A stretch of 64,000 bases of DNA from Candidatus Deferrimicrobiaceae bacterium (GTDB lineage Bacteria > Desulfobacterota > Deferrimicrobia > Deferrimicrobiales > Deferrimicrobiaceae): contig DASXVV010000013.1 in NCBI GenBank assembly GCA_036504035.1, positions 139,302 through 203,301 on the forward strand, read 5' to 3'. Each line of letters opens with the position of its first letter. Positions within the stretch are counted from its first letter, which is position 1. The notes below the pieces were generated by a model. The model saw only the letters and a list, made by a program, of their open reading frames with translations. It had not been told where the DNA came from and did no database searches. This document shows positions 2,479 to 42,871 of this stretch, piece by piece. The position numbers were made by a program, and so were the translations under genes.

Positions 2479-3342
2479 TCATTTGCCGGGAATATTGAAT
2501 ACCGGCGCCGCCAGCAGCTTCGTCGGCCCTTCGAGCTGCGGGACCTGTTCGAAGTTGTGGCTGGACATCTCTTCGCCCGTGATCGTCAGCAGCTTCCGGT
2601 AGGTCGTCGCCCAGTTGGCGGCGCGCAGCGACCACCACAGATAATACGTCAGCGCCCCGTGATAGTCACCGTCGATCCAGGCGTCGGCAGAGGTCTGGTC
2701 GGACCGGCAGCCGGCGATAAGGACTGCGTTGGTCTTCGAGATGCTCAAGCCGAACTTCTTGACCCCAAGCCCTTTGTCGGGCCCGGTCATCGTCAAGGAG
2801 CGGTCGATGCCGCGATTCTCGATGCGGCTCTCGGACCGGTGACGGATCTCGACCGGCGCGGGAATAAACTTGTACCGGATCGGCAGGTCGGGGTTCAGGT
2901 ATTCGCGAAGGCCCGTCCCCGAGTGACAGCAATCGAGGATGACGGTGAACAGCGCCACTTTCGGCACCCGCTTGCAGATCTCGGCCATGTCGTCATCGGT
3001 AAACGGGTTGTCCCAGTCGAGGTCGTACGGGCAGATGATCTCGTCGAGGTTGTCGGAAAGCTCGTCGCCGTGGACATCTCGAACTTGGGTTCCGTGGCCC
3101 GAATAATGGAATACGAGCGAGTCGCCCGGCTTCGCATCGGCCACCAATTGTTCTAACCCGGTCCGGATGGCGGACGTCGTCGCCCGCTGATCGGTCAGAA
3201 GCCGGACGTCCTGGTTCGCGAACCCGTACTGTTCCTTGAGCGTCTTGGCGATCAACAGGACGTCGTTGACGCAGCCTTTAAGCGTATTGCGTGGATCAGG
3301 ATAGCGGTTGATGCCGACAAGAAAAGCTTTCTTGGATGACAA
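2479..3342 (-). CDS. Caspase-like (peptidase C14) protein
   Basis: This 287-residue protein is a bacterial metacaspase-type cysteine peptidase. The catalytic dyad is visible: His83 in HYSGHGTQ and Cys139 in [10 protein letters not shown], each following a hydrophobic strand. The N-terminal [12 protein letters not shown] strand and the Asp-rich segment [17 protein letters not shown] fit the p20 fold. There is no signal peptide and no attached repeat or effector domain. A GGAGG ribosome site lies just upstream of the ATG. The stop overlaps a possible rmlA start, so the two genes are probably co-transcribed. A -24/-12 type promoter match lies upstream. The substrate is unknown. Orphan caspases of this class occur in cyanobacteria and deltaproteobacteria, but a link to polysaccharide formation is only contextual. 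Confidence 0.88.
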
Positions 3343-4045: not shown

Positions 4046-4061
4046 ATCAATTATCATGCCA
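4046..4061 (-). promoter_or_regulatory. Candidate sigma-54 promoter of the 178-aa PEP-CTERM gene
   Basis: The minus strand reads TGGCATGATAATTGAT. The -24 half is a close match (TGGCAT) and the -12 half is TTGAT at the correct spacing, with A in place of the usual C of the GC pair. The predicted transcript would have a leader of about 35 nt ahead of the ATG at 3999. A single CGTTAA half-site lies 21 bp upstream of the -24 box. Confidence 0.5.
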
Positions 4062-4221
4062 GATCATTCTGTCTATATATTCGTTAATAAACCAAGGTGT
4101 TAGCGGACCCGATAGCATTGGCGCGCCGCCTGGGAGCCATAAGTCCCTTTTGATGACCCAATATGGGCAATATCTTGCTTATATTGGGTTCCGGACCACA
4201 GAATGCGGCAGAAAAGGGACG

Positions 4222-4517: not shown

Positions 4518-4533
4518 AGCAGTTTTTATGCCA
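4518..4533 (-). promoter_or_regulatory. Candidate sigma-54 promoter of the miniature PEP-CTERM gene
   Basis: The minus strand reads TGGCATAAAAACTGCT: TGGCAT at -24 and CTGCT at -12 with exact spacing, close to the consensus TGGCAC-N5-TTGCW. Initiation would fall near 4507, giving a leader of about 42 nt. A palindromic motif shared with the next PEP-CTERM promoter begins 11 bp upstream. Confidence 0.65.
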
Positions 4534-4543
4534 TGCCGATGTG

Positions 4544-4573
4544 ATCATGTAACGTATTGATTCCGTGAACTAT
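4544..4573 (-). promoter_or_regulatory. Palindromic upstream element A (candidate PrsR site)
   Basis: This 30-bp segment matches the segment at 4930-4959 (opposite strand) at about 22 positions. Shared blocks are ATC, TGTAACGTA, GAT, CGT, AAC and AT in the same order and spacing. The arms GTAACG and CGTGAAC form an imperfect inverted repeat, as expected for a dimeric activator. It lies directly upstream of the sigma-54 promoter of the 62-aa gene, in the same orientation relative to the promoter as element B. Confidence 0.6.
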
Positions 4574-4619
4574 TTGTTTGCGAATAAACATCCCCGATGA
4601 TTTCTGATTGTCTTTAGTG

Positions 4620-4745
4620 GGAAATAGATTACCTACTCTGGCGCTAGCCTCCCGCTTCGGAATCGCTCCATAGCCGTCTTGCCCTTTCGGCAAGTAGCCA
4701 AAAAGGCGGGTGGATCCGGAAAGGTGTCGGCGTGGGTGTAAGATT
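4620..4745 (-). other. Intergenic segment with RNA-like secondary structure
   Basis: The 631-bp gap between the two divergent PEP-CTERM genes has no convincing gene. Read on the minus strand, this part contains CTTGCC-GAAAG-GGCAAG (6-bp stem with a GNRA-like loop), enclosed by GGCTA and TAGCGCC, which pair with one bulge, with a further small hairpin (TCCGAAGCGGGA). The order suggests a three-way junction. It resembles the layout of GEMM-type riboswitches, but the diagnostic ACGCAAAGCC box is absent. It lies outside both predicted leaders, so it would need its own transcript. Low certainty. Confidence 0.3.
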
Positions 4746-4929
4746 CCTCGTCTGTCCTCCATCGGGCCAATCTGAAAGCTAACTTATTGTATTTGCAGAT
4801 CATTATGCCAATAGTCCACGCATTTCCGTATCGTTCGTCCTTGAATAGTCGGAATATTTTACAACGTCCGTCTCCTCCAAAAACAAACTGGATTCACGAT
4901 CCCGGATCAAAACCTCAGGAACCATATAT

Positions 4930-4959
4930 ATCGTTAACGTTATCGCTACGTTACAAGAT
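4930..4959 (+). promoter_or_regulatory. Palindromic upstream element B (candidate PrsR site)
   Basis: This is the second copy of the 30-bp motif found at 4544-4573. Its arms GTTAACG and CGTTAC form an inverted repeat around a GATAAC/GTTATC core. It begins 62 bp and ends 33 bp upstream of the -24 box at 4992. Relative to the promoters, elements A and B differ in distance by about 22 bp, close to two helical turns. This fits an enhancer site for a sigma-54 activator; PrsR, encoded 900 bp away, is the obvious candidate. Confidence 0.6.
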
Positions 4960-4991: not shown

Positions 4992-5007
4992 TGGTATGTC
5001 AATTGCA
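4992..5007 (+). promoter_or_regulatory. Candidate sigma-54 promoter of the 204-aa PEP-CTERM gene
   Basis: TGGTATGTCAATTGCA has TGG at -24, a perfect TTGCA at -12, and the exact 10-bp distance between GG and GC. Transcription should start near 5018, about 80 nt before the ATG. ATACCAA at 4960-4966 and TTGGTAT at 4991-4997 form an inverted repeat that overlaps the -24 box. Confidence 0.65.
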
Positions 5008-5826: not shown

Positions 5827-7191
5827 TCAATCAGCCCCTCGGACGAGTCGGTGTTTTTTAATGAAGTCATGCAAGGTGGGGCGGCTGATCTCGAGTTCCT
5901 GCGCCGCCTTCGAGATATTCCACTCGCATTTCCACAACGTTTTCAGGATGTGCTCTCGCTCTACCTGTCCCCGAACTTCTTTCAATGAATCCGTCGTCTC
6001 TTCGCCACCAGCCTGCGGCAACTCAAGATCTCCGGGGGTGAGAATTTTCTTTTCGCTCATGATTACGGCCCGCTTGATCCGGTTCTCAAGTTCCCGGATG
6101 TTGCCCGGCCATGCGTAGGATTTCATCGCAACCAGGGAGTCAGTGCGAAAACCGATGACTTTCCGTTGATACTGTTCCGAAAATTTCCCGACGAAATGAT
6201 TGGCCAGCAGCACGATGTCTTCCCCGCGTTCCCGAAGCGGTGGCGCGACGATGTTCACCACGCCCAACCGGTAATACAAGTCTTCTCGGAACCGACCCTC
6301 CGATACCTCTTTTTTTAGCTCCCGGTTTGTTGCTGCGATCACCCGGACGTTGACGTCAACGGTTTCACGCCCCCCGACCCGCTCCAGCTTGAATTCCTGG
6401 AGGAACCGGAGAAGCTTGACCTGGAGCAGCAAGGGAAGTTCCCCGACCTCGTCAAGAAAAAGGGTTCCCCCTGCGGCGTACTCGATCCTTCCCTTGCGTT
6501 GCGAATCCGCCCCGGTGAAAGATCCCTTTTCGTGACCGAAAAGCTCGCTTTCCAGGAGATTATCCGGGATGGCGCCGCAGTTGATCGCGATGAACGGCCG
6601 ATCCTTGAATCCATCCCCGGAGCGATGGATGGCGTTGGCGATCAACTCCTTGCCCGTCCCGCTCTCTCCCTCGATCAATACGGGTGCATCCGTTTTCGCC
6701 ACCTTCTTTATGACGGCGAATATGCGTTTGATCGGGGGGCACTCTCCGATGAATTCGCCGAATTCGCCGGCGCGGTCTCCCATCTTGAGTGCAAGGTTCT
6801 CGCGTTCCATATCCGAGATCTTGAGCGCCCTTTTCAGCACGACCTTCACTTCCTGGAAATCAGCCGGCTTGAGAAAGAAATCAAACGCGCCCTGATCGAT
6901 CGCTTTCAATGCGTTTTCCTTGGACTGATTACCCGTGATCACGATCACCTTCGTCTTGCCGTCGACCTCCAGCAATTCGCAAAGGCATTTCAGCCCTTCC
7001 TCGGCGGTTCGAGGAGATGGCGGCAAGCCGAGATCCATCAGAACCAGAGAGGGCCGCTCCTGGCGCATTTGCTCAAGCGCGCAGATCCGGTTCTCCGCCA
7101 AGATCACCTGGTAGTCGGGATTCAGCGCCCACTTCATCTGGCTGCGGATGGCTTCCTCGTCCTCGACGACCAGCAGTTTTGGTTTATCCAT
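5827..7191 (-). CDS. prsR: PEP-CTERM system sigma-54 response regulator PrsR
   Basis: This is a 454-residue NtrC-family regulator. The receiver domain (about 5-125) has acidic residues E10, D11 and E12 and phospho-acceptor Asp53 in LVLMDLGLP. The AAA+ domain (about 140-385) has Walker A GESGTGKE and the sigma-54 contact loop in the form GSFTGA instead of the usual GAFTGA. A Fis-type helix-turn-helix ends the protein (ISKAAQELEISRPTLHDFI). The insertion SPRTAEEG after the acceptor Asp is typical of PrsR. Its gene sits 3 bp downstream of prsK, so the pair is one operon. It should activate the -24/-12 promoters found upstream of the local PEP-CTERM genes. Confidence 0.93.
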   Translation of the reverse strand: MDKPKLLVVEDEEAIRSQMKWALNPDYQVILAENRICALEQMRQERPSLVLMDLGLPPSPRTAEEGLKCLCELLEVDGKTKVIVITGNQSKENALKAIDQGAFDFFLKPADFQEVKVVLKRALKISDMERENLALKMGDRAGEFGEFIGECPPIKRIFAVIKKVAKTDAPVLIEGESGTGKELIANAIHRSGDGFKDRPFIAINCGAIPDNLLESELFGHEKGSFTGADSQRKGRIEYAAGGTLFLDEVGELPLLLQVKLLRFLQEFKLERVGGRETVDVNVRVIAATNRELKKEVSEGRFREDLYYRLGVVNIVAPPLRERGEDIVLLANHFVGKFSEQYQRKVIGFRTDSLVAMKSYAWPGNIRELENRIKRAVIMSEKKILTPGDLELPQAGGEETTDSLKEVRGQVEREHILKTLWKCEWNISKAAQELEISRPTLHDFIKKHRLVRGAD

Positions 7192-7194
7192 CGC

Positions 7195-9207
7195 TTATGC
7201 GGTCCCGACCGGCAGGGAAATCCGGAACGAGGTTCCTTTCCCCAGGATGCTTTCCACGTCGATCCTTCCCCCGTGGGCCTCGATGATGCCTTTCGTCTGG
7301 TAGAGCCCGATGCCGAACCCGTTGCTCTTGGTCGTCGAGAACGGCTTGAACAGCCGGTGATCGACGTAGTCCGGCGTCATGCCGCACCCGTCGTCCGATA
7401 CCGTCAGGAGAAGTTTCCCGTCGACGAACGCGGTCGAGAGGTGAATTTCCCCGCCTTCGGCCATCGCGTCATTCGCGTTCAGGAGCAGGTTGGTGAGGAC
7501 CCTCTTGATCTGACCACCGTCCAGCAGCGTCTCCGGCACCTTCCCCAGATCCTCCCGGATATCCGCCTTGAGGGAACCGCGAACCTCGGAAATCGCCTCG
7601 GCGGTCAGCCGGCTGAGATCCGTCCTCCTGAAATCCGGTTCGACATCCCGCGAAAGCCCGGCCAAGTGCTCCATCATCTTCTTCATCTTCTCGACCGTTT
7701 GCGCGATGCTGTGTATCGCATCCTTCCTGAACTCGGGATCGTCGAGGTTCCTTTCCGCGTTCTGCACGACCAGCGAGAGCATCGAAACGAAATTCTTCAT
7801 GTCATGGAGCACGAACGCCGAAAAGGAATGGAAGTCTTCCATCTCCTTGGCGCGAAGCAGGTTCTCCGACCATTGCGCGATCAGGAAGCTGTTGGCGGCC
7901 TGACGCGCCACCGTATTCAACAGATCGAGGTCTTCGCGATCAAAGGGGTGACCGGAACGGCTCTTGCCGCAGCCGAGTACGCCGACGAGCCGATCGCCCG
8001 TTACCAGGGGAACCAGTACCGAGATCCCCTCCGACCGGCACGACTCGAGAGCTTTCGGTAACATCTCCGGTGTCAGGACCTCTTCCATATCGTCCACTTT
8101 GACGGGATATCCGTGCATCTTGATGCTGTTGAACACGGCCGTATTCAGTGCGGTGATCCGGTCGCTGGATGCCGTATCTGCAGTCGCGCCGATGCGGTGC
8201 AACTCCCCTTCCCGTTCGTCGCACAGCCATAGGGTCGTCTGCTCGATCCAGACCGTTTCCTGGAGCATTTCGGAGATTGCCGACAACAGGCTGCGGGGAT
8301 CCAGCGTGGAGCTGAGTCGCGCCGTCAAGGCCAGCCATTCCTTGTGATAGTCGTACCGGTTGCGATAGAAGTGCCGATTGATAAAGCTCTTGAACTGCTT
8401 TTGGACGCGCGTGGACATGAAGACGGAAAGTAACCCCAAGACCGCGATGAAGGCGAACCAGATTCCGATATAGTTGCTGAAACTTCCTCCCAGGCTCCGG
8501 ATCGCCTGTGCCGTCAACCCGACGACCAACAGGTAAGCTCCGATCGCCAGCACGGTAAAGGAGTTGTAGACAAAGTAGCGGGAAACGAAGACGTCGACTT
8601 CGAACAATCGGTGCCGGACGAGGGAGAAGCCGACGAAACCGATCCCGACCAGGTCGGTCAGGGCCGTCATCGTTCCCAGGTCGATCCGGCTGGATGGGTA
8701 AAGAATCTGCTGCGAGTTGGCGTAGATCCGGACCAGGAGCATGACACCGACGCCGAGCAGGAGAAACTTGATCCGCCAGCGTTGCGTATGCGCCGAAGCT
8801 CGCAACGTCGTCTCGAAAGCGGCGAGGACCAGCGTGAGACCGAGCACGATGAAGACGGAGGAATAGTATTCCCCCCGGGCGGGTGAAATCGGAAAGATCG
8901 ATGCGATGTCGGGGACGAGCAGGCCGATAAAGTAGAAGGTGGTGACGACCAAGAAAGCCGTTCCTGCGCGCCAGCCCGGAGAAGATTTCAGCAGGTCGTC
9001 TCGTGAAAGCCCCAGGGCGAACATGAGCCAGGAAACAGGGAGAAGGCATTCCCCTGCCCGCATGACATCACGGGAAGCGATGAAAACGCCCAGTTCCGTC
9101 AGCGCCAGCGATGCCATGCCGATGGCGAACCAGCGGTTGACCGACCGGAGGAAGTTCCGGGAGAGGATGAAGACACCCATCCCCGCAAACGCCGCAGTGA
9201 CGGTCAA
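7195..9207 (-). CDS. prsK: PEP-CTERM system sensor histidine kinase PrsK
   Basis: This 670-residue membrane kinase starts with about eight predicted membrane segments (residues 1-260), followed by a GAF-like domain (about 290-440), a dimerization segment with the phosphorylatable His in VLHDMKN (about 460) and an ATPase domain ending in GIGLYQTKGIIEAHGG. The N-box NLLLNANDAM and G-box DDGCGMTP are intact. This architecture matches PrsK, partner of PrsR in PEP-CTERM/exosortase systems. The gene lies just downstream of an amputated exosortase with a 13-bp gap, as expected if exosortase, kinase and regulator were once one operon. Upstream sequence is now foreign, so its promoter may have changed. 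Confidence 0.92.
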   Translation of the reverse strand: MTVTAAFAGMGVFILSRNFLRSVNRWFAIGMASLALTELGVFIASRDVMRAGECLLPVSWLMFALGLSRDDLLKSSPGWRAGTAFLVVTTFYFIGLLVPDIASIFPISPARGEYYSSVFIVLGLTLVLAAFETTLRASAHTQRWRIKFLLLGVGVMLLVRIYANSQQILYPSSRIDLGTMTALTDLVGIGFVGFSLVRHRLFEVDVFVSRYFVYNSFTVLAIGAYLLVVGLTAQAIRSLGGSFSNYIGIWFAFIAVLGLLSVFMSTRVQKQFKSFINRHFYRNRYDYHKEWLALTARLSSTLDPRSLLSAISEMLQETVWIEQTTLWLCDEREGELHRIGATADTASSDRITALNTAVFNSIKMHGYPVKVDDMEEVLTPEMLPKALESCRSEGISVLVPLVTGDRLVGVLGCGKSRSGHPFDREDLDLLNTVARQAANSFLIAQWSENLLRAKEMEDFHSFSAFVLHDMKNFVSMLSLVVQNAERNLDDPEFRKDAIHSIAQTVEKMKKMMEHLAGLSRDVEPDFRRTDLSRLTAEAISEVRGSLKADIREDLGKVPETLLDGGQIKRVLTNLLLNANDAMAEGGEIHLSTAFVDGKLLLTVSDDGCGMTPDYVDHRLFKPFSTTKSNGFGIGLYQTKGIIEAHGGRIDVESILGKGTSFRISLPVGTA

Positions 9208-9220
9208 AGTGATGACCCGG

Positions 9221-9493
9221 CTAATCAGGCGGTGCCTCGCTTCGGCGCAGCGCCGACAATACGCAACCCAGCAGCAACATAGCGACGAGGAAAAACACGA
9301 CCCCGCCCCGGTGGTGCAGATTTCCGGTCATGAACCCAGGATCGACATGAATGCTCAACAGCGACAGCCCCACGATCCGGACGGCGTTCATGAAGATAGT
9401 GATCGGGAATACTACCACCGCCAGAGCAACCTTCTGCCATCCCGACTTGAGGAGAAGATGTTCGCTAGGACGCTCAGAAATAATTGGACCCAT
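9221..9493 (-). pseudogene. Amputated exosortase (C-terminal part only)
   Basis: The 90 remaining residues match the C-terminal part of an XrtA-like exosortase: NAVRIVGLSLLSIHVDPGF carries the catalytic Arg, and LHHRGGVVFF the catalytic His, followed by the last membrane helix. The catalytic Cys half (CSG motif) and all earlier membrane segments are missing. Homology seems to start near residue 17, at about 9445, just where AT-rich foreign DNA begins. A GGAAG lies before the ATG at 9493, so a short peptide could still be made, but it cannot act as a transpeptidase. The break is probably the left junction of the imported polysaccharide locus. Confidence 0.8.
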
Positions 9494-9604
9494 ATGTCTT
9501 CCATTCAAGTAATTAGTTGTCCCTGATATACCCGTTTCATGCGGTTGCCAAAGCCGCCTCCGTTGTGCATGTTCCCCTTACCCACTTAAAACCCGGAAGA
9601 GACA

Positions 9605-10761: not shown

Positions 10762-11813
10762 TCAGCGCCCCAACAGCGCTGGCTGTTCCCCGCCCGGTTG
10801 CAGCGGTGGGGTTTCGAACGGATCGTCCAGCCAGGTCCACAAGTCCCTGTAGGTGAACAGGTTATACCGGAGCAACGCCAGAGGTTGGAGAGCAACTAGG
10901 CGATCCGCGACCGGAACTACAGGTACTTCAGCAGCAGGATCGCGATCAATGCTGTCCAAATCTGGATTTTGAGCGCGTTGGCGTTTGTCCCCACGAACTT
11001 CTTGACCTTCAGGTTCTGCTTGATCGTCTTGAAGAAGATCTCAATCTGCCAGCGATCCTTGTAGATCGCAGCGACCGTCACCGAGGCGAGTTTCATGTTG
11101 TTGGTAAGCAGGACGATCGTCCGCTTGTTTTCGGCATCCCACACCTCGACCCGGCGCAGCCGGTGAGGGCACTTCTTTTGAGCGGCTGCGCCATCCCGTT
11201 CGATGATCTGGTCTTCAAGAACAAGAACCGCGCACCTGAACGGCGTGCTCCTCGACGACGTGGCAGAGAGCGTTGTCTTTCAGGCGAGTAACGAAGAATA
11301 CGCCTTGCTCCGCGAAGAAGCCGTAGTCGTTGTATCCGCGGTCCATGGCAACGATGGAACCTGACGGGAGCGACAAGTCCTTGGCCATCTTGACTTCGTG
11401 GACGTTTCCTTTCGTGATGTGGGCGAAGACCGGCAGGTACCCCTCGTGATCCAGGAGCAGGTGCAACCTCACCGCTCCCTTGGCCAGAGGCTTACAGATC
11501 GAAAGTATCTGGAAAAGAGCTTCTGGTAAAGCGTCCACGACCTGTGTTCATTGGCGTACGCCAGGGTCGAACGGTGCGGCGCTTCCGAAATATCCAGATG
11601 CTTGAGCTTGTCCAGGCAACTGGCCAACCCGCCGCAGATCTCCCGCAGCGATTTGGCCTGCCCCACCTGGCAAAAGAGCCTCGACACGAATTGACCACAG
11701 CAGGAATAGCCCTTGGCGTCCCGTTCGGCGCCCGTTTCTTTGACGATGGCGTAAAATTCGCTCTTCGGGACGACGTGTAAAATCTGGCCGAACATGCGGA
11801 TAGACTTGTTCAT
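10762..11813 (-). pseudogene. Decayed IS4-family transposase (DUF4372 type)
   Basis: Four reading-frame pieces line up with one transposase. 11469-11813 encodes the N-terminal DUF4372 part (MNKSIRMFGQILHVVP...). About 11235-11510 encodes the middle with GAVRLHLLLDHEGYLP and the second catalytic Asp in VAMDRGYND. 10917-11230 encodes KDRWQIEIFFKTIKQ with the catalytic Glu. 10762-10890 encodes LLRYNLFTYRDLWTWLDDPF. Roughly 100 bp with the first catalytic Asp is missing near 11510, there is a frameshift near 11235, two TAG codons occur where the family has Gln and Trp (from 10919), and a further frameshift follows. It cannot be active without help. Clear terminal inverted repeats were not found. 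Confidence 0.88.
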
Positions 11814-30819: not shown

Positions 30820-32277
30820 TTATGCTTTGTTGCCAAAAAAGATAATTGATTTACTTTCTGCCCAATGTTGTTTAACCACATATATATAGAGCGCAATAGA
30901 AACAATGGCCCCAGAAAAAACATCTAATCTTGGAAGAGCATTCAGAATGTTTCTACTAGCAAACCATAAACCTCCAAACACAAATGTTGGTATCAAAGCA
31001 TTAAGAAATATCGCGTAATAATTTTTTAAGTTTAGTTGGTTAATTGTGTGTATCTGATTTATTTGAATCATATTCCCGAAGATAGTTGCAACAAAACCCG
31101 CAAGTGCGGCGCCTGTAATCCCGTAGAGTCGAGTTGCCGGATAAATCAGAATCAGGATGATCAAGACTCGAACAATTGTGAAGTTTCTATGAAGGTGTGG
31201 GCGACCACTGGCAAAATAATAAGTAACTACTGGAAGGACGCTTACTCGTAGAAATTCAGTGATTAATATGATCCCGAACGCGACCCGCGCCCCAGAGTAC
31301 CGTTTCCCGTAGACCACACCCAACAGGTAATCCGCATAGAAAATGACGAACAATATTCCTGGGACCATGAACAAAAAGATATTTTTTGTTATATTATGAA
31401 TGTATTTATTGACTGTTAGTGTGTCATTCTGAATTTTCGAAAAAATCGGCATCATAATTCGATTGATCATAGATGTCACTAATTGGAATGGCATTCTTGC
31501 TAGAGATGCAACTAAGGTATAAAGTCCAAGTTCTGAAATTGTGCAAATCTTACCGACAAAAAAAACGTCGCTTCTCATAAATATAAATGTCATAACTGGT
31601 AGGCCGATCATGCCCTTTGAATACGACAAGAGTGAACGGATGTAATCTTTATCGAAATATAGATTAGGACAAAAGGGGGCAATAATGTAGGACAAAATCA
31701 TTCTAGAAAAGGCTTCCAAGGAAAATCCGATTACAAGAGCCCATGTGCTTTTCAATACGAACGAAAGAATGATCGAAACAAGGATCCCTATTACGCTACC
31801 CCCATGGTAAATCAAGATCCAACGCTTAAATTTCATATCCTTTTGTGACACATAAGCATTTGGACTCATAAAACCATTAAAAAGAACAACAAGAAAAGCA
31901 ACCCGTGTCATTCCGGTCAAATTCGGCGTATTGTAAAACTCCATCACGAACGGAGATGCAATATATGCTGCCAAATAAAGAAATATCGATCTTCCAGCGG
32001 AAATCCACCATGCGCCATTCAGGTAACCCTGCTCCTTCCCCTTGGGATTCTGAATGATCCCTTCTTTAATTCCAATTTCAGTAAAAGATTCAAATGCGCT
32101 GCTGATTGCCAGGATAATCGCCATTGCTCCGAAGGATTCGGGGGAAAGAATACGTGTGAGAATGATATTTCGTATAAATCGAAGACCTTGTTCGGAGCTG
32201 CTCCCAATCGCTACCCAGAGCCCTCCACTGATTGCTGAGTGCCGAAGAGACCCCTTTTCCCCCATGACCTTTTTCAC
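30820..32277 (-). CDS. wzx: Lipopolysaccharide/polysaccharide flippase (Wzx)
   Basis: This 485-residue protein has about fourteen membrane segments and belongs to the MATE-like polysaccharide flippases (RfbX/Wzx, MurJ-related). The start GGLWVAIGSSSEQGLRFIRNIILTRILSPESFGAMAI is the usual opening of this family. It moves undecaprenyl-PP-linked repeat units from the cytoplasmic to the periplasmic face for polymerization by the Wzy-like protein. It overlaps the upstream exosortase stop by 4 bp (ATGA). The base composition is AT-rich like the rest of the imported block. Confidence 0.92.
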   Translation of the reverse strand: MKKVMGEKGSLRHSAISGGLWVAIGSSSEQGLRFIRNIILTRILSPESFGAMAIILAISSAFESFTEIGIKEGIIQNPKGKEQGYLNGAWWISAGRSIFLYLAAYIASPFVMEFYNTPNLTGMTRVAFLVVLFNGFMSPNAYVSQKDMKFKRWILIYHGGSVIGILVSIILSFVLKSTWALVIGFSLEAFSRMILSYIIAPFCPNLYFDKDYIRSLLSYSKGMIGLPVMTFIFMRSDVFFVGKICTISELGLYTLVASLARMPFQLVTSMINRIMMPIFSKIQNDTLTVNKYIHNITKNIFLFMVPGILFVIFYADYLLGVVYGKRYSGARVAFGIILITEFLRVSVLPVVTYYFASGRPHLHRNFTIVRVLIILILIYPATRLYGITGAALAGFVATIFGNMIQINQIHTINQLNLKNYYAIFLNALIPTFVFGGLWFASRNILNALPRLDVFSGAIVSIALYIYVVKQHWAESKSIIFFGNKA

Positions 32278-33764
32278 AATTGGGCGTTTCTTGCGATTTC
32301 ACTAAGTAGGCGGACGACGATATGTGGAGCTGTCCCCGTTGAAATTGGCTCTGTTTTCAGATATTGCATCGGAATCGTCACCGCGTAAAACATTCCGCTA
32401 TTTTTGTTATGAAGCACACGGTTCAGGATCAGAAGATACTTTGCGTAAAAGCGATTGGAAGTGATGGTGCCTCCAATCAAATAGCCAAAATACACCGTTT
32501 TGTTTGAGTCTTTTGTCCCCTTAATTGCCATCCGCGTTTGAAAGGGGCCAATATTTTCATTGACCGAACCAATGTTAAGTTCGTCAAAGTAATAGTTGAA
32601 TAGTTTTTTCCCTTTCTGTTGGGTTGCGAAATAAGCAACGAAAAGTTTTATTTTGTTCCCGGAAGGGTCTGTGTAAATTCTTTTGATTTTAGAATCAGAA
32701 TTTTGATCTTCGTAAGGTTCTTCAAGAATAAAAACCTCCTTGCCTGCCCATGAATCAAGCAGTAAAGGGATGTTCATTGTTGGCATATAATCAGGAAATG
32801 GGCTCTGCTGAGCATTAAATGCAAATAAACCAGTTATTGACAAAATGATAAAAGCCAGCACGGAAGCATTCCTATTCGAAACCTGCCCCAGGTTGATTTC
32901 ATGTTTTGGCGGGTCTTCGAAACATGTCTCAACCCGATTCGACGGAAAAATCTTATTTATCAAAATAAATACGATCAATAGCAGAAAAGACCCTACTCCC
33001 ATAATAAAAGTTGAAACAATAAGAGTATTGAATGGGCCATGAATCGAAGCATCTGGTTGGAACTTCATCCAAATGCCAATCATTCCGATACGTACGCCAT
33101 TTGAAAACAATCCTACGAAGAAGGATAAGAGAACCAATAATATTTTACCAATAAACGAAAGCCTTGAAATCAATGCTAACGGAATTGATAAAGCTACCAA
33201 TGTCAAGATATGGTTGATTCCACTACACTCCTTTACCACGTCAAGTGTTGTGTGCGGAAGAATTATAAATTTACCCTCTTGTATTGCGGGCATGCCTGTC
33301 AATGCAAGTAAATTTGTTGCGATATTTGCTGACAATACCTGGAAATAAATACTGTATTTCCCCAATAGAACAGAAAAAAACGGAAACATGAACAACAAAT
33401 AAAGGACCGGGAGCAAAAGGGCTAAAAACAGTTTGTATCCTGCAAACAAAAGTATTAACCCGAGCAGAGTTAAAACAATCGATCCTTCTTGAACTAAAGC
33501 CATATCACCAAATCGCCCGATCAGGTAAACAAAGCAACCCGTGATCAACAAAATAGACCCTGGAAGAATTAATGGAATTAACGGGATTTTGGTCAACTGT
33601 TTATGTTTTATCCAAACCAGATAACCGCTAATAGCAATTATCAAAAAACCGTGCGATAGCTCACCAGTCATCATGCCGTACGCTGCCTCCCTAAAGGGGA
33701 ACCAATACGACACAATGAACAAAATGCCAACTACCGCTGTGTAGATGTGATTCTGTCTGCTCAT
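32274..33764 (-). CDS. Exosortase fused to an EpsI-like domain
   Basis: The 496-residue protein is an integral-membrane cysteine transpeptidase. The first 285 residues hold about eight helices with the catalytic Cys180 (KECSGINH), Arg225 (NGVRIGMIG) and His242 (IHGPFNT). The C-terminal 190 residues are an exported EpsI/DUF3485-like domain (DSWAGKEVF, KLFVAYFATQQKGKKLFNYY). Fusions of this type are known among exosortase subfamilies and form a single protein in place of separate exosortase and EpsI. It should cut PEP-CTERM proteins at the PEP motif and pass them to a partner at the surface. It is the only intact exosortase in the window. Confidence 0.9.
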   Translation of the reverse strand: MSRQNHIYTAVVGILFIVSYWFPFREAAYGMMTGELSHGFLIIAISGYLVWIKHKQLTKIPLIPLILPGSILLITGCFVYLIGRFGDMALVQEGSIVLTLLGLILLFAGYKLFLALLLPVLYLLFMFPFFSVLLGKYSIYFQVLSANIATNLLALTGMPAIQEGKFIILPHTTLDVVKECSGINHILTLVALSIPLALISRLSFIGKILLVLLSFFVGLFSNGVRIGMIGIWMKFQPDASIHGPFNTLIVSTFIMGVGSFLLLIVFILINKIFPSNRVETCFEDPPKHEINLGQVSNRNASVLAFIILSITGLFAFNAQQSPFPDYMPTMNIPLLLDSWAGKEVFILEEPYEDQNSDSKIKRIYTDPSGNKIKLFVAYFATQQKGKKLFNYYFDELNIGSVNENIGPFQTRMAIKGTKDSNKTVYFGYLIGGTITSNRFYAKYLLILNRVLHNKNSGMFYAVTIPMQYLKTEPISTGTAPHIVVRLLSEIARNAQL

Positions 33765-36571: not shown

Positions 36572-37765
36572 CTACGAGACTTTCTTCGCGGACGCGAGCG
36601 CCTTCGATTCGACGGAGGCCGTGCGGCGCGCGGCAAGCTGCTCACGGACCATGACGATGATGGCCGGGATCGTCTTGAAAATGATCTTGAGGTCGGTCCA
36701 GAAACTGTCTTGCCGGGCGTAGGAGATGTCGTAACGCATCATCTGCTTGAAGGTGGTCTTGTTCTTTCCGTTGACCTGCCACAGCCCGGTCATACCGGGA
36801 ATAGTGTCGAATCGACGCGTGTGCCAGAGGTTGAAATCTTCGGCCTCGTTGGGCAGGCAGGGCCTGGGCCCGACGAGACTCATGTCGCCGAGCAGGACGT
36901 TGATCAGCTGGGGCAGCTCGTCGATGCAAGACTGCCGGAACAGCTTGCCGAACGGGATGATTCTCGGATCACGCTCGGCATCGAGCTTGGTCATCGGTTG
37001 GTCGCCGCTGCTGATCAGGGTGCTCAGATATTTTTGATGCTGTGACGCATCGTTGTCGACGTGCATGGTGCGGAACTTCCAGAAAGTGAACGGCCGTCCA
37101 CGGTAGCCGATGCGGGTCTGCTTGAAGAAGACGGGCCCCGGGGAGACGATCTTGATGAAGAGGGCCACCAACAGGAACAGCGGGGAAAGAACGACAAGCG
37201 CCAGCAGCGCGCCGACGACATCGAGCGTGTCTTTCCAGAAGGGAAAGCGCCGCCTGAAGATCGGTTCGAGCTGCTGGGCGGCGAGTTCCGGCTCCGGAGC
37301 CACAAGCGAGCAGGCGATCCCGCCCGGCGCGGCGACCTCATCGGACGCTTTGCAGGCGGTGCCCTTCTGCTCGATCCAATTGGTCGGATAGGAATAGATG
37401 GTTGTATGGAGCACCGTGATGCGGGGTGCGGCGGACTGCCGGACCGCCTCGGCGAATTTCAAGGCGCCGTCGGGAGAGGTGCCGGGCAGGATGGCGGCAA
37501 GCGCATGGTCGTCGAACCAGCCGATGGCGTCGCTGTTGCGCGCGCGTTTGCGGATGGCCGTCTCGAGGTAGCGGGTGGTCATCTGGATGCTGCCGGTCGC
37601 GGACCCGATGCCGAAGACCACCAGGGAAAATTCGTGTCCGGTGCGATCGGTGCGGGCACGTTCGCGTTCGAGGATCAACAGGAAGTCTTCCCGGACGTGG
37701 ATGCCGCTCGAGGACCGCATCCGGCTGAAGGTATCTTTCAGATTCAGGAAATCGAAGAAACTCAT
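36572..37765 (-). CDS. Undecaprenyl-phosphate sugar phosphotransferase with N-terminal GGDEF-like domain
   Basis: The C-terminal part (about 170-385) is a bacterial sugar transferase of the WcaJ/PglC monotopic kind: membrane-entry segment DTLDVVGALLALVVLSPLFLLVALFIKIVSPGPVFF (split here at about 176-210), GRPFTFWKFRTM, DELPQLINVLLGDMSLVGPRPCLP and FDTIPGMTGLWQVNGKN. It initiates repeat-unit synthesis by loading the first sugar phosphate onto undecaprenyl phosphate. Residues about 25-130 resemble a degenerate GGDEF fold (FSLVVFGIGSATG; RNSDAIGWFDDHALAAILPGT), with the GGDEF signature itself lost. A nucleotide-sensing or structural role is possible. The gene lies 218 bp from the tyrosine-kinase end. 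Confidence 0.87.
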   Translation of the reverse strand: MSFFDFLNLKDTFSRMRSSSGIHVREDFLLILERERARTDRTGHEFSLVVFGIGSATGSIQMTTRYLETAIRKRARNSDAIGWFDDHALAAILPGTSPDGALKFAEAVRQSAAPRITVLHTTIYSYPTNWIEQKGTACKASDEVAAPGGIACSLVAPEPELAAQQLEPIFRRRFPFWKDTLDVVGALLALVVLSPLFLLVALFIKIVSPGPVFFKQTRIGYRGRPFTFWKFRTMHVDNDASQHQKYLSTLISSGDQPMTKLDAERDPRIIPFGKLFRQSCIDELPQLINVLLGDMSLVGPRPCLPNEAEDFNLWHTRRFDTIPGMTGLWQVNGKNKTTFKQMMRYDISYARQDSFWTDLKIIFKTIPAIIVMVREQLAARRTASVESKALASAKKVS

Positions 37766-37983
37766 GAACGCCCCCTGCGGCCCTTCCCCACGTACGGCAA
37801 ATCTATTCTGCCAAAATCAGTTACAAGATGCATGCCGGTTTCCTCCGGGAATACAAGAGAGGCAACCTGGCGCAATGATTGATAATTGTTGTTCTGACAC
37901 ATCATCATGAGGATGAGAGGCGAAACGGTGTGGGAAATAACTTTCCCTGATTAAGCAATTAAGCGGAGCTGTTTTCTTTGCCT

Positions 37984-41220: not shown

Positions 41221-42720
41221 CTAGGCTTCGTCGAGCCCGCACTCCTTGATCTTGTAGAGGAGCGCCTTGTAACTGATGTCGAGGATCGTGGCCGCCTTGC
41301 GCCGGTTCCAGCGCGTCTGCCCGAGGACGCGTTCGATCAGCACCCGCTCGGCGTTCCGTTGAGCGAGCTTGGCCACTTCCTTGAGCGTCGCGTTTTCGGG
41401 AGGCGGGGACGCGTGTCCCGCGTTGGGCGTCGGGGCGTAGCTGGTGAACGCGGTGGACCTTCCGCCCTCCGTCGAATAGGCCTCGTCGCGGAAATCGCGG
41501 AGCCCCGCAGGGGCGACGGCATCCATCTCGGTCGGGGTCGCATATCCGCCGTTGTCGCGCTTGCGAGTGAACTCGGAGATCAGCTGGGATTCGTTTCCCA
41601 GGATGATGTACCGCTTGATGTTGTTTTCGAGCTCGCGCACGTTGCCGGGCCAGGTATAGGAGAGAAACATCTCCATCAACCGGGGAGAGATGGGAACCGG
41701 TTCGCGATTGTACATCTCGGAATAGCGGTGCAGAAAATAATCGGACAGCAAGGCGATGTCGTCCTTGCGCTCCCGCAGGGGCGGAATCACGATGTTGACG
41801 ACGTTGATCCGATAAAAGAGGTCGCGTCGGAACCGCCCCTCGTCGACCATGCGCTCGAGGTTCTTGTTGGTGGCGGTGAGGATGCGGCAGTTGGCCTTGA
41901 CTTCTTTCTCGCCCCCGATCCGGTAGTACTGCTTTTCCTGCAGCACGTGAAGCAGCTTGCTCTGCAGGTCGAGATGCATCTCGGTAATCTCGTCGAGGAA
42001 GATGGTGCCGTTCTGCGCCATCTCGAACCGGCCGTATTTCCGGCGGTGCGCGCCCGTGAAAGCCCCCTTTTCGAAGCCGAACAGCTCGCTTTCGAGCAGC
42101 TCGCGGGGGAGTGCCGCGCAATTGACCTTGATGAAGGGCTCACCGCTCCGGTCGGACTCCTTGTGGAGGGCGCGCGCCATCAGCTCCTTGCCGGTGCCGG
42201 ATTCGCCGGAGATGAGGACGGTGATGTCGGTGTTGGCCACCTGGTCGACGGTCGCCTGGAGCTTGGTCATCTGCTCGCCCAGGGAAAACAGCAGCTGATA
42301 TTCCTCGTCGACCCGCACCTTGGTCTTGAGCTCCTGGAGCTCCCACTTGGCCTGGCTGTTCTCGAGCGCCATCTGGATCTTGAGCGCCAGCTCTTCTCCG
42401 TGGAACGGTTTCTTGATGTAGTCGCTGGCGCCATCCTTCATGGCCCGGACGACTTCCTCGACGTCGGACTGCCCGGAAACCATGATGATGGGGGTGGTCG
42501 GGGAATGGCCCTTGAAGGGCTTGATCAGGTCGACGCCGCTGCCGTCGGGCAGAAAGATGTCGAGAACGACGCAGGAGAACGGATGCAGAAGGAAGGCGCT
42601 TTCGGCCTCGGCCTTGTTGAAGGCCGTAATGACCTTATGGCCCTTCTCTTCCAGCAGATTTTTGGTGAATTGGGTGAATACAGGGTCGTCGTCAACAAGC
42701 AGCACGAGATGGGGCGTCAT
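41221..42720 (-). CDS. Sigma-54-dependent response regulator of the polysaccharide locus
   Basis: This is a 499-residue NtrC-family activator. Receiver domain: DDD at 10-12 and acceptor Asp54 in CVVLDIFLPDGSG. AAA+ domain: GESGTGKELMARALH, the canonical GAFTGA loop in FGFEKGAFTGAHRRKYG, and RRDLFYRINVV. A Pro/Ala-rich linker of about 60 residues precedes a Fis-type helix-turn-helix (WNRRKAATILDISYKALLYKIKECG). No histidine kinase is beside it. The ATG at 42720 lies behind GGAGG. It is distinct from PrsR and heads the wza-wzz-kinase group, so it probably controls polysaccharide genes. Confidence 0.9.
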   Translation of the reverse strand: MTPHLVLLVDDDPVFTQFTKNLLEEKGHKVITAFNKAEAESAFLLHPFSCVVLDIFLPDGSGVDLIKPFKGHSPTTPIIMVSGQSDVEEVVRAMKDGASDYIKKPFHGEELALKIQMALENSQAKWELQELKTKVRVDEEYQLLFSLGEQMTKLQATVDQVANTDITVLISGESGTGKELMARALHKESDRSGEPFIKVNCAALPRELLESELFGFEKGAFTGAHRRKYGRFEMAQNGTIFLDEITEMHLDLQSKLLHVLQEKQYYRIGGEKEVKANCRILTATNKNLERMVDEGRFRRDLFYRINVVNIVIPPLRERKDDIALLSDYFLHRYSEMYNREPVPISPRLMEMFLSYTWPGNVRELENNIKRYIILGNESQLISEFTRKRDNGGYATPTEMDAVAPAGLRDFRDEAYSTEGGRSTAFTSYAPTPNAGHASPPPENATLKEVAKLAQRNAERVLIERVLGQTRWNRRKAATILDISYKALLYKIKECGLDEA

Positions 42721-42871
42721 CTGGCTTGCCTCCGGCAACGACTATAATGCAAAACCTGATTGCTGCCGAATATACCATGAAAGGAAATATTTTTCCCAAG
42801 AAAAGAATGCGATTGCTGCCGGGGGCGGCATTTTAATCGATAAGCGAGATTTTGGGGAAAAATGGGAAAAT

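Follow-up and report, generated by a model that had tools for sequence, protein, structure and literature searches.

Genes and promoters at the locus

The stretch of DNA analysed here, 64 kb long and referred to as the window, contains three PEP-CTERM genes, two of which diverge from a 631-bp intergenic region, followed by the genes for the response regulator PrsR and the histidine kinase PrsK (Table 1). The assignment of the 62-aa protein is borderline, with 20.9 bits in the genome search and 19.9 bits in the protein scan against a Pfam cut-off of 20.7. Both divergent genes are preceded by a GG (-24) and a GC (-12) spaced by 12 bp, our criterion for a sigma-54 promoter, and a -24/-12 site also precedes most PEP-CTERM genes of related genomes. 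An ORF adjoining the PEP-CTERM genes (2479-3342, minus strand) has by eye a caspase-family (metacaspase) appearance. The window also encodes a full-length exosortase (32274-33764, minus strand), whose nearest match is XrtW at 384.7 bits, under the XrtW cut-off of 425, and which is possibly of another subtype.

PrsR and PrsK both exceed their curated cut-offs, in agreement with the initial annotation of this locus. Among the genomes searched PrsR scored above its cut-off in 4 of 59, whereas the 23 other genomes of the same family had none, suggesting lateral gain or repeated loss; TIGR02915 matches in other genomes that fell short of the curated cut-off were excluded from this count. Searching genome contigs with the PrsR profile returned mainly AtoC-like regulators of Bacteroidales. 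Beside PrsK lies a 95-aa fragment (9221-9508, minus strand) with exosortase similarity confined to its C-terminal part, and an ORF at 11215-11538, transposase-like by eye, suggests that the PrsR/PrsK locus has been truncated.

Table 1 Coordinates of the genes and sequence elements discussed in the text.
Feature	Position	Strand	Sequence	Remarks
PEP-CTERM protein, 178 aa	3463-3999	-
PEP-CTERM-like protein, 62 aa	4277-4465	-		signal peptide and sorting tail, little else; YEPAT replaces PEP
PEP-CTERM protein, 204 aa	5097-5711	+
PrsR, PEP-CTERM-box response regulator	5827-7191	-		TIGR02915 578.9 bits (cut-off 502.6)
PrsK histidine kinase	7195-9207	-		TIGR02916 410 bits (cut-off 300)
EBP2, second NtrC-type sigma-54 response regulator	41221-42720	-		in exopolysaccharide cluster
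Sigma-54-like promoter, 178-aa gene	4046-4061	-	TGGCATGATAATTGAT	GA, not GC, at -12; weaker
Sigma-54 promoter, 62-aa gene	4518-4533	-	TGGCATAAAAACTGCT	one of 8 window sites scoring at least 14
Sigma-54 promoter, 204-aa gene	4992-5007	+	TGGTATGTCAATTGCA
30-mer copy 1	4544-4573	+	ATCATGTAACGTATTGATTCCGTGAACTAT
30-mer copy 2	4930-4959	-	ATCTTGTAACGTAGCGATAACGTTAACGAT
IHF-like core in copy 1	4550-4562	-	AATCAATACGTTA	9/9 IHF consensus; 8.2 bits, window rank 92
IHF-like core in copy 2	4941-4953	+	TATCGCTACGTTA	7/9 IHF consensus; 9.2 bits, window rank 53
IHF-like site, third PEP-CTERM promoter	4089-4102	+	AAACCAAGGTGTTA	12.1 bits, window rank 10
Predicted PrsR box (Haft motif 1)	4847-4863	+	AGTCGGAATATTTTACA	17.0 bits, best of 64 kb
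Enhancer-like palindrome	4617-4636		GTGGGAAATAGATTACCTAC	17.9 bits, profile without this genome
Weak palindrome copy	4163-4182			8.1-10.1 bits
Enhancer-like palindrome	42780-42799		AAAGGAAATATTTTTCCCAA	19.4 bits; just upstream of EBP2
Enhancer-like palindrome	37930-37949		GTGGGAAATAACTTTCCCTG	13.5 bits; upstream of sugar-transferase gene 36572-37765

Two related 30-mers precede the divergent promoters

The 30-mers upstream of the two divergent promoters are identical at 23/30 positions (about 22 had been claimed initially) and form the top inverted 30-mer match of the intergenic region. A chance likeness of two AT-rich promoter stretches would be in keeping with the best matches of 18-20/30 that shuffled intergenic regions typically reach, but 23/30 was attained in none of 200 dinucleotide shuffles (maximum 22), the gapped pattern of the 30-mers occurs twice in the window against 0.02 expected, and the placement is equivalent at both promoters, all of which makes chance extremely unlikely. 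Across the genome (3.17 Mb, allowing up to 3 mismatches) the pattern was present at these two places only.

The initial annotation had described both copies as palindromic, oriented alike to their own promoters and offset by about 22 bp. Palindromy holds for copy 2, in which the dyad TAACGT-N7-ACGTTA is perfect, and is only partial for copy 1, in which it reaches 4/6, as read from the sequence. The like orientation is borne out, and the distance to the -24 box is 10 bp for copy 1 and 32 bp for copy 2; measured from the IHF-like cores described below, the gaps amount to 16 bp and 38 bp and so differ by 22 bp, an offset that fits a helically phased site. Elsewhere in the window, close to the sugar-transferase gene, GTTACAAGATGC at 37820-37831 has GTTACAAGAT in common with copy 2.

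A predicted PrsR box distinct from the 30-mers

In the regions described by Haft 2006 (PMC1569441), a 17-nt motif 1 ending in TTTACA is followed by a spacer (62.8 +/- 10.6 nt, range 32-92) and then by the sigma-54 motif; PrsR was predicted there as the binder of motif 1, which was found before only 99/167 proteobacterial PEP-CTERM genes. For the PrsR box, de novo discovery in 29 upstream regions of PEP-CTERM genes, almost exclusively of PrsR-bearing gammaproteobacteria, gave us the 17-nt form TGTCGA-N5-TTTACA; a shorter form, TGTCG-N5-TTTACA, with a spacer of one base less, gave nothing clear. The best match in the window (4847-4863) is of the learned type, points at the 204-aa gene and lies 128 bp upstream of its -24 box, a spacer outside the range of Haft 2006 and hence a caveat for this predicted box. 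The 170 bp before the promoters of the 62-aa and 178-aa genes contain no PrsR box. Two PrsR boxes, at 19.4 and 12.2 bits, were present in the PrsR-bearing relative G050.

The 30-mers themselves had initially been read as PrsR sites, with a PrsR dimer binding their imperfect dyad and activating both genes. That reading draws on the adjacent PrsR/PrsK genes, the like orientation of the copies to their promoters, their partial dyad and their uniqueness in the genome, but the PrsR profile gives the 30-mers -5.6 and -3.8 bits at best against 17.0 for 4847-4863 in the same intergenic region, their distances to the -24 box fall well short of the mean of 63 for motif 1, and similar elements, of the IHF type, occupy the equivalent place in PrsR-less relatives. 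We consider it very unlikely that the 30-mers are PrsR enhancers.

The 30-mers as predicted IHF sites

For 44 promoters, EM was run de novo on both strands of the 72 bp that precede the -24 box and recovered ataTCAa..aGTTA, which corresponds to the IHF consensus WATCAANNNNTTR; the consensus is given as WATCARNNNNTTR in PMC7962754, where enhancer, IHF site and RpoN promoter, in this order, are the usual layout. When the promoters of this genome were left out, the LL was 76 compared with 40-48 for shuffled regions. Matches to at least 8/9 consensus positions were found in 21/46 promoters (7.6 +/- 2.5 in shuffles), with 5 perfect matches among the 46 (0.4 in shuffles). Near-matches in the relatives' promoters occur in both orientations, with a density per 1000 positions of 6-14 in the 50 bp nearest the -24 box and of 0-4 farther out, and IHF-like positions show a periodicity of about 10.5 bp (permutation p 0.0024, under a uniform null, so that clustering alone could inflate it). 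Of 23 IHF-like matches in gammaproteobacterial PrsR promoters, 10 lie within the 25 bp adjoining the -24 box, a comparable clustering. The genome encodes both IHF-alpha (NF001401, 138.5 bits, cut-off 111) and IHF-beta (NF001222, 128 bits, cut-off 115).

Both 30-mers contain the IHF consensus, copy 2 with 2 mismatches in the conserved core. Under an independent IHF-like profile, built without this genome, both copies rank among roughly the highest-scoring 0.1% of positions in the window, although their scores are modest, with about 100 positions per 64 kb reaching at least 8 bits. At the third PEP-CTERM promoter the IHF-like site precedes the -24 box by about 27 bp; the CGTTAA at 4082, previously proposed as a half-site of the 30-mer for this promoter, is present in the sequence, but the element there is the IHF-like site instead. 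The enhancer-IHF-promoter order is found at both divergent genes, with palindrome 4617-4636 (see below), copy 1 and the -24 box at 4533 for the 62-aa gene, and with PrsR box 4847-4863, copy 2 and the -24 box at 4992 for the 204-aa gene.

The IHF consensus accounts for the core of the 30-mers, for their position between enhancer and -24 box and for their use in both orientations. The 30-mers represent a genuine conserved promoter element and are most likely IHF sites, which the initial reading mistook for PrsR enhancers. The broader claim of a conserved regulatory element at sigma-54-dependent PEP-CTERM promoters stands; what recurs in the relatives' PEP-CTERM promoters is the IHF-type core, and the full 30-mer is found only at the two copies in this genome. 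Identity between the copies also runs beyond the IHF core, taking in the spacer (TACG), a flank (CA.GAT) and an arm (GT.ACG). IHF by itself would not need this additional identity, which may reflect duplication or another protein. This extra identity, together with the absence of the long form elsewhere in the genome, would suit a site of some other factor specific to both promoters, or a recently duplicated fragment whose additional identity is functionless, but core, position and phasing are shared by many promoters of relatives, and we regard either origin as unlikely.

A proposed palindromic enhancer class and its candidate activator

When EM was applied to 46 promoters, over the 170 bp preceding the -24 box, the dominant motif was the palindrome atgGGaAAa..tTTtCCcat (LL 234; the best unrelated motif of equal width reached 105), located mainly 60-150 bp upstream of the -24 box. 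It is present in most PEP-CTERM promoters of PrsR-less relatives, where it dominates, and absent from gammaproteobacterial PEP-CTERM promoters (maximum 8.8 bits). Under a profile built without this genome, the top two matches in the window are the copy before EBP2 and the one at 4617-4636, which precedes the -24 box of the 62-aa gene by 83 bp; in random sequence about 2 matches per 3 Mb reach at least 17 bits. At the 178-aa gene, the weak copy precedes the -24 box by about 101 bp. The two divergent promoters have opposite profiles: the 204-aa promoter combines a PrsR box with no palindrome (1.2 bits), and the 62-aa promoter a palindrome with no PrsR box (-5.0 bits). A degenerate genome-wide version of the palindrome was uninformative (184 matches against 276 per strand for the reversed control), and its sole exact match, at C9:162536, scored only 6.0 bits. 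The literature searched held no published match to TGGGAAA-N4-TTTCCCA.

Close homologues of EBP2 were found in 11 of 59 genomes, counting this one, and 9 of these 11 have a palindrome of at least 11 bits upstream of their own gene. The same holds for L246 and L265, regulators of other families with a similar HTH, and regulators with other HTHs have no palindrome upstream (maximum 7.3 bits). By regulator HTH the palindrome was present in 11/17 versus 0/22 (Fisher, p 7e-6; an approximate hand tally). The simple picture is complicated by genomes G008 and G015, which have palindromes and no close EBP2 orthologue, and by several ISYK-type regulators without the palindrome. Its presence upstream of EBP2 and most orthologues suggests that EBP2 is likely the cognate activator.

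Proposed layout of the intergenic region

With a PrsR box on one side and the palindrome on the other, the divergent genes appear to be wired to two different activators, with a bending element in common. We think it probable that the 30-mers are IHF sites between enhancer and -24/-12 promoter and that the activators differ, PrsR for the 204-aa gene and EBP2 for the 62-aa gene. IHF would bind each 30-mer and bend the DNA, bringing the activator farther upstream into contact with the sigma-54 polymerase, and the 22-bp offset (two turns) would keep the bend on one DNA face. PrsR at 4847-4863 would activate the plus-strand gene, and EBP2 at 4617-4636 the minus-strand gene. We infer the binding of IHF, PrsR and EBP2, and activation of transcription by that binding, from the sequence. 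For the phylum we find it somewhat more probable than the contrary that most sigma-54 PEP-CTERM genes are controlled by EBP2 or functional equivalents at TGGGAAA-N4-TTTCCCA, often also before the regulator's own gene, and not by PrsR, with both circuits coming together here on divergent genes that have an IHF bend element in common.

More interesting than the 30-mers is the meeting of two enhancer classes in one intergenic region. Most of what is known about the regulation of PEP-CTERM/exosortase systems comes from the 2006 prediction of the PrsR box, and a second enhancer class with a candidate activator can now be proposed from sequence. Since one genome has both classes, activator specificity is testable on two promoters of a single intergenic region. 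A second activator, if real, would be one possible reason, speculatively, why the Haft motif was seen at only part of the PEP-CTERM genes.

Comparison with known systems

Like the region described in 2006, the locus has PrsR/PrsK nearby and, before the 204-aa gene, a box ending in TTTACA and a -24/-12 promoter; it differs in its long spacer (128 bp versus 32-92), in 30-mers that are not motif 1 and in the lack of a box before the other two PEP-CTERM genes of the cluster. As in the IHF sites of sigma-54 promoters of the nifH and Pu type, a WATCAANNNNTTR-type core lies between enhancer and -24 box, in either orientation, in a genome with IHF genes, whereas the sites here are predicted from sequence, copy 2 is 2 mismatches off and the form in this lineage favours ..AGTTA. 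In Desulfovibrio vulgaris, the sigma-54 response regulator DVUA0057 was found by DAP-chip to bind upstream of Haft-predicted PEP-CTERM genes (PMC3333781); unlike the system here, it is a plasmid gene of another lineage. Finally, the TGGGAAA-N4-TTTCCCA dyad, present at most promoters of the phylum, resembles the enhancers of the NtrC family, which are palindromic UAS at a distance of about 80-150 bp upstream, in placement and in its occurrence upstream of an NtrC-type regulator, and its sequence is different from that of the PrsR box.
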